Assembly (NCBI GenBank): GCA_032622095.1
Contig: CP136065.1
Coordinates: 156,121,577-156,185,576, forward strand
DNA length: 64,000 nucleotides
Source: Siphonodentalium dalli
Taxonomy: Eukaryota; Mollusca; Scaphopoda; Gadilida; Siphonodentaliidae
Direction of reading: 5' to 3'
Shown here: piece by piece, positions 17,036-42,970 of the stretch
How positions within the stretch are numbered: the first letter of the stretch is position 1
How the letters are laid out: each line of letters starts with the position of its first letter
Notes under the pieces: generated by a model
Database searches by the model: none
What the model was told of the DNA's origin: nothing
Seen by the model: the letters and a program-made list of their open reading frames with translations, nothing else
Translations under genes and position numbers: made by a program

Positions 17036-17925
17036 GGGAACATGTCTCTATTCCGAAGGTTCGCTATTCCGAAGGTTCACTAATCCGAAGGTTCACTAAT
17101 CCGAAGGTTCACTATTCCGAAGGTTCACTATTCCGAAGGTTCGCTATTCCGAAGGTTTTTGTTATTTTAAAAGTTAATTCTATATTCTAAAGTATTGAGA
17201 GGGTTCTTTTTTAGTACGAAGACTCTTTTTATGAAGGAAATAACTTAAAACATTAAAAAAATAAATGTGATTTTTGTTTTCGTGGGTTTCCTTGAGATTT
17301 AACCCTTTGGCGAGTAGAACGACATATATGTCGTCTATCGGCTGAGGACTAAAACGACATATATGTCGTTTTAGGAAGTGTTATTTTACGTAGACATAAC
17401 TTCAATAAATCATCTGATTTATAAATGATTTACATAGGAGTTATTTTGATTAATATAATGTCCCAAATGCTAAAGGCGGACTATAACAGTGGGGCTCTTA
17501 CGGTCAATCAATACTGGAGCGCTATAACTTACTGTATAGCAGAATAACAGAAGACCTAACTGCAATTCTGACTTTGTATTGATTTTAATGTTGATGTTTC
17601 TTTCAAGTACAGATTGCCAGTTCGGGTAGAATGCATCTCTAACTCGTAGTTTATTTCAGTCATTGTGTTTTCAACTTTCTATAATATTAAAATGATAAAC
17701 TGATACTGTCTTCTTGCTATTAATAACCGACATCTGGGACAAATTAGATATTAGATTGGGGTGTATAAATGTACGGGGGCGCAAATTTTGATTCATTTCT
17801 GGCTAAAAACTCCCATAATAGAAAACCTTCGGAATAGCGAACCTTCGGAATAGTGAACCTTCGGATTAGTGAACCTTCGGATTAGTGAACCTTCGGAATA
17901 GCGAACCTTCGTAATAGCGAACCCT
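17036..17925. mobile_element. Foldback element with arms of 16 bp tandem repeats
   Basis: The left arm (17048-17159) is seven tandem 16 base units of the form ctattccgaaggttcg; the right arm (about 17822-17921) is six such units in reverse complement. Unit variants (ATT or AAT; last base g or a) follow the same order from the outside in both arms, except one extra unit on the left, so the arms are true inverted copies. A 12 base direct repeat, acccccctcctc, flanks it (17024-17035 and 17926-17937), and copy A has this sequence once at about 9139-9150. Tandem-unit inverted arms match the foldback architecture. No transposase is present. Confidence 0.92.
17299..17375 (+). other. piggyBac-like terminus inside the foldback element
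   Basis: The sequence TTAACCCTTTGGCGAG is followed by two perfect acgacatatatgtcgt-type palindromes. TTAA plus CCCTTTG is the usual start of piggyBac-superfamily elements. I do not find the matching right end (CAAAGGGTTAA) in this window, so it is at best a fragment. Confidence 0.35.
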
Positions 17926-26966: not shown

Positions 26967-27278
26967 TCTCATATAAATTTTGAAGACCTCTGTCTGTATG
27001 TATGTTTGTTTGTTTGTCTGTCTGTCTGTCATTTATACAAATCTACGATTCTCGACCGATCGGGACGAAACTTGGTACGTGTGTGTCGTTTGACCAGGCG
27101 GTGAACGTTGTCGTATTGGCGAGCCCGTGCGGCGCCCGCTTCGCGCATGCGCAGACGAGATCTCGGAAACGGGTGGAGCTATCGACTTGAAATTTGCTAT
27201 GTGAATGTATCTTGCCCCGGATACGAATTTGAAATTTTGTTTTTGAATAGCCCGGACAACGTCGGGCTCATCGGCTAG
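26967..27278 (+). mobile_element. Helitron-like non-autonomous element, family 2, solitary copy
   Basis: It starts A|TCTCATATAAATTTTG and ends with the imperfect hairpin agcccggacaacgtcgggct, 6 bases (catcgg), then CTAG|T. A 5' TC, a 3' hairpin shortly before CTRR, and insertion between A and T are the Helitron signature. Inside are a (tgtt)/(tgtc) microsatellite (27003-27030), the phrase ctcgaccgatcgggacgaaa, and one copy of the 122 bp core that is repeated 2-3 times in the relatives at 40453-41863. No Rep/helicase gene. Confidence 0.82.
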
Positions 27279-39735: not shown

Positions 39736-40016
39736 CTAGCTCATGTGCACGACTTCGTCCGGGTTATTTAGGGATTTGTTTGTGATCGCCTCCGTTGAAA
39801 AGTATTAGGAGAAAGAAAAAAAACTATTGTTCGATCGGTCCAGAAACATGCCTTTATGAGCGAGGTCAAAGTCAAGGACACGGTCGCACCTGAAATTGGA
39901 CCCGCCCATATTATTCCGGGGATCAGAGTAGGCCCAAATATCAAATTTGAGTCGGATCGGTCGGTCGAGCAGTTTTCCAGTCTATAACACACAGAAGTTC
40001 CAAAATATATAATAGA
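39736..40016 (-). mobile_element. Helitron-like element, family 1, copy a
   Basis: On the minus strand it starts TCTATTATATATTTTGGAAC and ends with the hairpin region acccggacgaagtcgtgc, acatgag, CTAG. It has one ~138 bp core (cggtccagaaacatgccttt ... gatcagagtaggccca). One hairpin base pair is lost by a G to T change compared with copy b. Confidence 0.8.
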
Positions 40017-40452
40017 CCAGCTGATATGTGCCCGACTTCGTCCGGGTTATTTAGGGATTTCTTTGTGATCGCCTCCGTCTGAGCAGAATATACAGCGTCT
40101 GGACAAACTATTGTTCGATCGGTCCAGAAACATGCCTATATGAGCGTATGTGAGCGAGGTCAAGGACACGGTCGCACGAGGAATTGGACCCGCCCACATT
40201 ATTCCCGGGATCGAAGTAGGCCTACATGCGGTACCAAATTTGAGTCGGATTGGTCGAGATCCAGAAGCATGCCTATATGAGCGTGTATGAGCGAGGTCAA
40301 GGTCAAGGACACGATCGCACGTGAAATCGGACCCACCCATATTGTTCCCGGGATCAAAGTAGGCCTACATACCAAATTTGATCGGATCGGTCGAGCAGTT
40401 TTCGAGTCTAACACACATACACACAGACAGAAGTTCCAAAATATATATTAGA
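40017..40452 (-). mobile_element. Helitron-like element, family 1, copy b
   Basis: On the minus strand it starts TCTAATATATATTTTGGAAC and ends with cccggacgaagtcggg, cacatatcag, CTGG. It has two tandem ~138 bp cores (catgcctatatgagcg at about 40131 and 40268), and the tail phrase gatcggtcgagcagttttcg next to an (acac/acag) tract. Confidence 0.82.
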
Positions 40453-40818
40453 CTAGCCGATGAGCCCGACGTTGTCCGGGCTATTAAAAAAAAACAAATT
40501 TCAAGTCGATAGCTCCACCCGTTTCCAAGATCTGGTCTGCGCATGCGCGAAGCTGGCGTCGCACGGGCTCGACGACCCGATAAAATTCGTATCCGGGGCA
40601 AGATACATTCACATAGTAAATTACAAGTCGATAGCTCCACCCGTTTCCGATATCTCGTCTGCGCATGCGCTGCACGGGCGTCGCACGGGCTCGCCAATAC
40701 GACAACGACGACCGCCTGGTCAAACTACACACACGTACCAAGTTTTGTCCCGATCGGTCGAGAATCGTAGATTTGTATAAATGACAGACAGACAGAGGTC
40801 TTCAAAATATATATGAGA
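40453..40818 (-). mobile_element. Helitron-like element, family 2, copy a (2 cores)
   Basis: The 122 bp core (starting tcaagtcgatagctccaccc) occurs at 40501 and 40623. The 3' hairpin is agcccggacaacgtcgggct, then catcgg and CTAG (minus). The 5' end is TCTCATATATATTTTGAAGA. Open stretches on both strands across this and the next two copies arise because 122 bp units shift frame and happen to lack stops. Confidence 0.85.
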
Positions 40819-41336
40819 CTAGCCGATGAGCCCGACGTTGTCCGGGCTATTCAAAAACAAAATTTCAAGTCGATAGCTCTACCCGTTTCCGAGATCTGGT
40901 CTGCGCATGCGCGAAGCTGGCGTCGCACGGGCTCGGCGACCCGATAAAATTCGTATCCGGGGCAAGATACATTCACATAGCAAATTTCAAGTCGATAGCT
41001 CCACCCGTTTCCGAGATCTCGTCTGCGCATGCACGAAGCTGGTGTCGCACGGGCTCGGCGACCCGATAAAATTCGTATCCGGGGCAAGATACATTCACAT
41101 AGCAAATTTCAAGTCGATAGCTCCACCCGTTTCCGAGATCTCGTCTGCGCATGCGCGAAGCGGGCGCCGCACGGGCTCGCCAATACGACAACGTTCACCG
41201 CCTGGTCAAACTACACACACGTACCAAGTTTCGTCCCGATCGGTCGAGAATCGTAGATTTGTATAAATGACAGACAGACAAACAAACAAACAAACAAACA
41301 TACATACAGACAGAGGTCTTCAAAATATATATGAGA
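40819..41336 (-). mobile_element. Helitron-like element, family 2, copy b (3 cores)
   Basis: Cores start at 40865, 40987 and 41109, exactly 122 bp apart. A longer (acag)(aaac)(ata c) microsatellite lies at 41270-41312 next to the 5' end. Ends are as in copy a, with intact CTAG. Confidence 0.85.
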
Positions 41337-41863
41337 CTTGCCGATGAGCCCGACGTTGTCCGGGCTATTCGTCCGGGCTATTCAAAACCCAAATTTCAAG
41401 TCGTTAGCTCCACCCGTTTCCGAGATCTGGTCTGCGCATGCGCGAAGCTGGCGTCGCACGGGCTCGGCGACCCGATAAAATTCGTATCCGGGGCAAGATA
41501 CATTCACATACCAAATTTCAAGTCGATAGCTCCACCCGTTTTCGAGATCTCGTCTGCGCATGCGCGAAGCTGGCGTCGCACGAGATCGGCGACCCGATAA
41601 AATTCGTATCCGGGGCAAGATACATTCACATACCAAATTTCAAGTCGATAGCTTCATCCGTTTCCGAGATCTCGTCTGAGCATGCGCTGCACGGGCGTCG
41701 CACGGGCTCGCCAATACGACAACGTCCACCGCCTGGTCAAACTACACACACGTACCAAGTTTCGTCCCGATCGGTCGAGAATCGTAGATTTGTATTAATG
41801 ACAAACATACAGACAAACATACAGACAGACACACAGACAGAGGTCTTCAAAATATATATGAGA
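41337..41863 (-). mobile_element. Helitron-like element, family 2, copy c (3 cores)
   Basis: Cores start at 41396, 41518 and 41640. The 3' end is CAAG rather than CTAG, and the hairpin head has a 14 base local duplication (cgtccgggctattc twice at about 41357-41384). The 5' end faces host A at 41864. Confidence 0.83.
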
Positions 41864-41865
41864 TT

Positions 41866-42970
41866 GCCATGAGTAAACCGTTCGCTCTATAAAAATGAAA
41901 ATCGCTATAATTTTGCGTGTAGACACTAACCATGAGACACATACGTCAACAAATTGAATCTCTGCAGTAGGCTGTGTTGATGGTAAGATCTACGCGTCTA
42001 TAGTAGGCTGTGTTCCTGATATGATTGACTTGTCTACACAACCTGTTCTCTGCTGTGACGTCCGTAACTATTACGGAAGTAAAATTGCACGTCATGTGCT
42101 ATATGGTCCGGACCTACTTCAGCACACTAGCAGTAGGCCATTATTCATAATTGGAACTCAGATATTGGTTCATCGGAATAACCGTATCTCGAAGTTTCAA
42201 ACAGTGTACGCTGTACGTTCCCCGATTGTTGACGAGTATAACCTTTCAACTAAGTCAGTGTTATGGTTCTTGTGATATTTCCGTCATATTTTCCACTGGA
42301 AGGCGACCATAATGTCAACAGCCCAGCACACGACGCCATAACGTCATTTAGCAGCAAAGAGATGAAGTGTATGGTGGGCTGTGTTAATTTTTATGCATTA
42401 CGTGTTATGCTATAGTGTCGCCACAAGTAAACCGTTCGCTCTAAAACTTAGAAAATCGCAATTTAGTTGCGAGTGGATTCCCACTATCACATACACTCGT
42501 CAAAAAAAATTGTATCTCCATGTTTCATTTTTTGGAGTATTTGGTTTTCGGTGGAATTTGCCAATTTGAACCCACCCGCACGCGAGCTCTCCGTTGGGCA
42601 GGTTGTTTATTTAGTAGAGCGGTAAAACTTTGGGACGTTACGAACAGAATATCGGCGTAGCTGCACTTGCATTACCTCGCTCCTTAATTAGCCCGTTTGG
42701 ATTTGGCGGGGAAAATAGTTTAGTGATACAGCACTTAACTATACCTATATACGTTATAAAGTCTCGCCACGAGTAAACCTTCGGCTTTAGCGCGATTTGA
42801 ACAGATACAACAAAGTTGCTCCTGAACACTATCTATCACATCCACCCATCAAAACAATTTATCTCGATGTTTGATTTTTTGACAATTTTCCCCCTTTGAT
42901 TTTCGTTCGAATTTGTCAAAAGTCTGAACCCACCCGAAGCTCTCTCGCTGTTGGGCGGCCGTAGATCGGT
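41866..42970. repeat. Three diverged copies of a 'gagtaaaccgttcgctct' repeat
   Basis: Copies begin at about 41870, 42418 and 42770 with (g)ccac(a/g)agtaaacc(g)ttcg(c/g)ct. The second and third also share 'ttgtatctccatgttt/tttatctcgatgttt', 'gaacccaccc' and 'gagctctc..gttgggc'. Short open stretches (e.g. 42021-42275) are not recognised. Confidence 0.65.

Follow-up and report, generated by a model that had tools for sequence, protein, structure and literature searches.

A total of five non-autonomous elements were found joined in a zero-gap row on the minus strand at positions 39736-41863 of the window, the whole stretch of 64,000 nucleotides that was analysed. Their lengths of 527, 518, 366, 436 and 281 bp add up to the 2,128 bp of the row. 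The first member, E1 (41337-41863, minus strand, 527 bp), is a family A non-autonomous Helitron with the 5' end TCTCATATATATTTTG, a microsatellite, 122-bp cores and a hairpin. Family A also includes E2 (40819-41336, minus strand, 518 bp), which has no gap to E1 or E3, and E3 (40453-40818, minus strand, 366 bp), which has no gap to E4. The 5' start of these three members is TCTCATATATATTTTGAAGACCTCTGTC and their 3' end is GCCCGGACAACGTCGGGCTCATCGGCTAG, with CTAG in E2 and E3 and a decayed, one-base variant (CAAG) in E1. The remaining two members belong to family B: E4 (40017-40452, minus strand, 436 bp) has the 5' end TCTAATATATATTTTGG, two cores of about 140 bp and a 3' CTGG, and E5 (39736-40016, minus strand, 281 bp) has the 5' end TCTATTATATATTTTGG, one core of about 140 bp, a decayed hairpin and a 3' CTAG.

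The row is flanked by a genomic A directly upstream of E1 and by a T to the right of E5, where the sequence reads TATATGATATAACG. At all four inner borders the ending of one element passes into the TCT of the next without an intervening base. All five members begin with TCT and end with CTAG or CTGG, the CAAG of E1 being one change off, and the 16-mer 5' end is exact in four of the five and has one mismatch in the fifth. The original prediction had described five elements of two families with zero spacing and outer A and T flanks, and the borders read at all members agree with it. The array is therefore confirmed as real.

The microsatellite (GTCT/GTTT/GTAT) adjoins the 5' end, and both it and the 122-bp core array of E1-E3 were confirmed by TRF. 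A fold of the predicted 3' hairpin was obtained for E1-E3 (z -2.0 to -2.7), whereas it is weak in E4 (z -1.1) and absent in the decayed E5 (z 0.1), the segments folded for E3 and E4 being 4 bases off the true ends. No inverted repeats of 20 bp or longer were found in the array region. Two 88-bp copies with 72% identity (41866-41953 and 42420-42507) lie immediately upstream of the array and are possibly an older repeat that received the first Helitron.

A solitary, complete family A Helitron of 312 bp was found on the plus strand of the window at 26967-27278, where it is preceded by A, runs from TCTCATATAAATTTTG to CATCGGCTAG and is followed by TATTATATAATTG. Its 5' end at 26967 has one mismatch to the 16-mer and is the sixth such end in the window. 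This copy lies between A and T with the same borders as the array, which recur in solitary copies parsed elsewhere in the genome, and provides an internal border control; solitary copies with borders unlike those of the array had been named as a possible objection. Other repeats in the window include an 82-bp tandem repeat at 55-705 (7.9 copies, 97% matches) and two short arrays of one 16-bp unit (CTATTCCGAAGGTTCA) at 17048-17157 and 17824-17923, which are in opposite orientation and about 670 bp apart.

An autonomous Rep/helicase partner with the same ends, the search for which had been proposed, was found at C2:141790964-141799534. This element of 8,571 bp has the family A 5' end, the hairpin CCCGGACAACGTCGGG and the end CACATCGGCTAG, and its 3' end differs by one base from that of family A (GGGCACATCGGCTAG compared to GGGCTCATCGGCTAG). 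Its 1,650-aa open reading frame contains PF14214 (Helitron_like_N) and PF05970 (PIF1) together with HSH and KYVCKY motifs; STPR repeats were observed near the N terminus of the protein. A second autonomous copy of 8,576 bp follows downstream with zero gap, differs from the first by 3 substitutions and 5 gap bases, and like the first keeps the 1,650-aa frame open. The pair (C2:141790964-141808110; L022, L073, L076, L074) lies within an array of the form A-518-518-8571-8576-T in which two A elements precede it, so that an autonomous element with matching ends is itself part of such an array. Further autonomous Helitron pairs or triplets on the same strand, 8-27 kb apart, were seen among the Rep matches, for example at C1:114628540/114638548, C6:36914596/36925960/36934407 and C9:50089810/50115928/50140932.

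The Helitron identity proposed for the elements is supported by their TC and CTRR termini, the A-T target, the short hairpin about 10 nt from the 3' end in E1-E3 and, for family A, an autonomous member whose protein has a Rep part (HUH, two tyrosines) and a PIF1 helicase. That the elements insert between A and T and leave no target site duplication was judged from the flanking bases. The likeness to pearl, DINE and HINE elements, also part of the original prediction, holds for the architecture of a microsatellite with central tandem cores, which alone is insufficient for membership of the Helentron group. The termini and the target are those of canonical Helitrons, and Helentron membership fails because the target here is A-T whereas oyster HINEs prefer TT (PMC7492417). 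Judged from these sequence features, families A-C would best be placed among the canonical Helitrons, their interior resembling that of HINEs, the class of families B and C being read from ends, hairpin and target and the autonomous partner being that of family A.

The stacking was followed through the 2.23-Gb assembly with its nine large contigs, where all counts were made with exact patterns and are lower bounds. The exact 26-mer of the A-A junction (CGGCTAG followed by TCTCATATATATTTTGAAG) was found 6,707 times compared to 0 for the reversed control, and this junction is therefore not due to chance. Mixed-family junctions, a search for which had been proposed, were likewise found by the thousands: 1,902 junctions lead from A to B/C and 1,251 from B/C-like elements (other CTRG ends) to A, the latter mostly involving, among the matches listed, the TGCTAG end of a third family C. 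The five-element unit of the window is not repeated elsewhere beyond family-level similarity. Junctions from A to B (180, exact) compare with about 240 from B to A, a figure extrapolated from the matches listed that includes CpG-decayed A ends.

Outer, A-flanked 5' ends of family A number 7,595, and an A precedes 98 of 100 outer 5' ends among the matches listed. Of the exact family A 5' ends, 51% sit at junctions and only about half have a genomic A upstream. With a T required by the search pattern, the family A 3' ends are followed by TC in 14,448 cases (80%) and by T and a base other than C in 3,557, and at least 48% adjoin an exactly identified element. Parsed arrays open behind a genomic A and close ahead of a T. 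The outer 5' ends L043-L072 form a set of 30 that follows genome order on C1 and contains a few duplicated loci and several ends that begin within another array. Roughly one third of them are solitary and the rest are mostly stack starts, often mixed. In this genome of 2.2 Gb, zero-gap stacks are the rule.

A junction variant without the final G of CTAG (CGGCTA followed by TCTC) was observed at four loci (L047, L048, L052 and L072) and in 4 of 100 outer-5'-end matches listed. No match was found in the phage records searched. An artefact of assembly at this locus, such as a collapsed or misjoined repeat, is extremely improbable as the members are several percent apart and come from different families, and the same exact borders and A and T flanks occur at thousands of other loci.

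The analysis of relatedness among stack members drew mostly on about 110 of the roughly 15,000 copies of family A, partly picked for similarity to the window. Among about a hundred sampled copies, the closest relatives have identities of 97.9% to E1, 98.1% to E2 and 96.2% to E3. Of 60 adjacent A pairs, 54 consist of members whose nearest relatives are found outside the pair, and the remaining six pairs include nearest relatives. Median identity is 94.0% for neighbours and 93.0% for copies between loci; the neighbour distance of 6.25% compares with 6.86% after shuffling, and 0.9% of the shuffles were as low. The correlation of pairs across loci is weak (r=0.185, with 5% of permutations as high). 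This slight excess similarity of neighbours, together with the weak correlation, indicates that some unit movement or duplication occurs.

One explanation to which these data speak is a rolling-circle concatemer, in which failure of 3' termination, or more than one turn round a head-to-tail circle, would produce a multimer of one element that is inserted whole. Head-to-tail circles with exact LTS-RTS junctions are experimental intermediates of Helraiser (PMC4778049, PMC5876387), and the tandem autonomous pair, near-identical across 8.6 kb, suits tandem copying, as do the six neighbouring A pairs with nearest relatives. The neighbours in a multimer would be mutual closest relatives, which was observed for the autonomous pair but for only 6 of the 60 A pairs. 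As neighbours in these A pairs are mostly independent copies, multi-turn copying of one element is excluded as the main route, and read-through copying, one of two routes suggested by the original prediction, is not supported as the main route. A multimer of one element also cannot give the recurrent mixing of families of different age, which refutes this explanation as the main route of the mixed arrays; we consider it unlikely.

A formed array might also be copied as one transposon, from its first 5' end to its last 3' end, into a new A-T site. Bypass of an end is established in Helraiser (PMC4778049) and the slight correlation between pairs of pairs (r=0.185) points the same way, but only 2 locus pairs were found to be close at both positions compared to 3.2 expected. 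Movement of the concatemer as one unit, for which a check had been proposed, is not supported as the main route either: the five-element unit has no second place in the genome, its best matches stop inside E1-E3 at family-level identity, and the E4-E5 pair has no close copy, with joint matches of 76-83% in the genome. Movement of whole units thus appears quite unlikely as the source of the stacks.

Genome-wide, neither E4 nor E5 has a relative above 88% identity, the best match of E4 being at about 88%, and the decayed hairpin of E5 likewise points to age. The donor stays where it is when a Helitron is copied, so E4 and E5 were not recently copied in together with E1-E3, and they are taken to be residents. 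The age contrast between E4/E5 and E1-E3 and the independence of neighbours support the other suggested route, in which elements insert repeatedly at the end of another.

Arrays may further be built or trimmed by local duplication and by unequal recombination that involves similar elements or their 122-bp cores. The paralogous loci L043 and L075, with flanks that are 99.4% identical, carry 3 and 4 A elements respectively through recombination in the cores, and the clusters at C1:188.85 Mb and C4:106.73 Mb show near-regular spacing. Recombination is unable, however, to make the first junction or to join families exactly at TC and CTAG, and it would leave neighbours as closest relatives, which are a minority here. 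It is insufficient as the sole source of mixed arrays and very unlikely to be the principal explanation, and remains a secondary process. Some of the near-regularly spaced clusters look like nascent satellites. At C1:188850285-188861811, non-A-to-A junctions (TGCTAG followed by TCTC) were observed at near-regular intervals of about 1,057 or 1,190 bp, a pattern that resembles a mixed dimer on its way to becoming satellite DNA. Another paralogous pair (L067/L070) shares flanks and a B element and has A elements of 949 and 388 bp; the identities of A, B and flank are all 94-97%, which fits independent insertion or shared descent alike.

The explanation that we favour, and hold to be probable, is that canonical non-autonomous Helitrons inserted independently, one after another, at the left edge of a resident and in this way built up the array. 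A resident Helitron has a genomic A on its left and its own TC at its start, so that its left border (A-TC) is a legal A-T target. A newcomer inserted there would place its CTAG end directly before the TC of the resident and take over the genomic A. Repeats of this event would give an array in which the A lies before the newest member and the T behind the oldest, with zero spacing and the youngest member leftmost. Canonical insertion adds on the left only, because the right border (G-T) is not a legal target, and the TCT(C/A)(A/T)TATATATTTTG common to the 5' ends of families A, B and C allows them to stack on one another. In the window, E5 and E4 would be the older residents and E1-E3 would have arrived afterwards on the left. 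Tandem copying, as in the autonomous pair, and core recombination, as in L043 and L075, are minor additional routes.

From this scheme we also infer the sequence in which the members of family A arrays arrived, and the evidence for an age polarity there is only suggestive. Terminal branches are longer in the downstream member in 38 of 58 adjacent pairs (p=0.08) and in the last compared to the first member in 20 of 32 (p=0.06), and divergence from the consensus is divided 35 to 23 (p=0.31). Family A is leftmost 7,595 times and rightmost about 3,557 times, an asymmetry that is partly confounded because the autonomous element has the A 5' end and a slightly different 3' end.

The right flanks show a tight target motif. 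ATATAT or TATATA occurs at +3 to +12 in 83% of 78 distinct right flanks compared to 1.0% of the A-T sites in the window, and the same motif is found in all of the elements' own 5' ends. The target was scored by motif count rather than by a column-by-column matrix, as the phase of TATATA in the right flanks varies (+4 to +6) and position +2 is constrained by the search pattern. Left edges make up about 3.4e-5 of the A-T sites, or 0.3% when given an 80-fold motif bonus, whereas at least 48% of the A 3' ends abut an exact element end. A preference for the motif is thus more than 100-fold too weak for the observed frequency, and we therefore infer specific recognition of resident 5' ends. No insertion 4 bp inside the family C 5' end (between TCTA and TTATAT) was found in the genome, compared to 1,902 at the exact edge, which fits recognition of the edge and not a mere preference for A-T with TATA.

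The Rep/PIF1 transposase of autonomous elements with family A ends would probably prefer resident 5' ends as targets, these being its own cleavage site, and Rep would recognise such ends directly, plausibly since cleavage there starts transposition. It is conceivable, though we hold it with some doubt, that resident 5' ends, own and of related families, are the preferred acceptor of the transposase, so that the cleavage site at the origin doubles as a landing site and gives rise to directional stacks and then to satellite DNA. If so, this would be a natural case in which a transposon targets its own origin, and it would offer dispersed elements a path towards tandem satellite DNA.

Whether zero-gap tandems arise by rolling-circle copying or by successive insertion has been debated since 2007-2008 on a handful of cases, and the scale found here could help to settle how stacks form. 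Several thousand datable junctions, families of different age and an apparently intact autonomous element make the order and mode of stacking directly testable. Bats and maize are already known to contain head-to-tail Helitrons joined as CTAG-TC, and tandem Helitron insertions have been described in rice, Drosophila and fungi as well (PMC2267711, PMC5148889); for those in Myotis, PMC2267711 cites Pritham and Feschotte (2007). In maize, Du et al. (2008) described adjacent head-to-tail Helitrons, different elements that abut with CTAG joined to TC and no A between, and gave insertion at the AT formed by the host A and the 5' T of the resident as one of two options, the order being unclear (PMC2267711). 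The type of stack and its explanation are already known from maize, and it is the scale that stands out: one pair was found there compared to thousands of junctions here, with several families per stack and autonomous elements included. As far as the literature searched is concerned, the scale, the multi-family make-up, the tight target motif resembling the elements' own 5' end and the autonomous stack are new.

Canonical Helitrons (Helitron1 type, Helibat/Helraiser of bats) share with the present families the 5' TC, the 3' hairpin followed by CTAG, A-T insertion with an AT-rich 3' side, a protein with Rep (HUH, YxxKY) and PIF1 helicase, and non-autonomous derivatives. The families described here differ in the 122-bp or about 140-bp core arrays and microsatellite inside non-autonomous copies, in the zero-gap stacks that hold about half of the family A copies, and in a much tighter TATATA target motif; for Helraiser, a comparable though less strict preference for AT 3' of the insertion site has been measured (PMC4778049). 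The Helentron-derived HINE/DINE-1, oyster Cg_HINE and bivalve pearl-type elements are alike in having a left module with a tetranucleotide microsatellite, a satellite-like centre and a right module with a 3' palindrome (PMC7492417), but they have TT insertion and subterminal inverted repeats whereas A-T insertion, TC and CTAG ends and an autonomous partner with canonical ends were found here. Finally, the fungal FoHeli elements can likewise be inserted at, or close to, the 5' end of a second copy, and the same two explanations were debated for them, although they have Helitron2-type ends and a TNAT-A target and are found as isolated cases only (PMC5148889).
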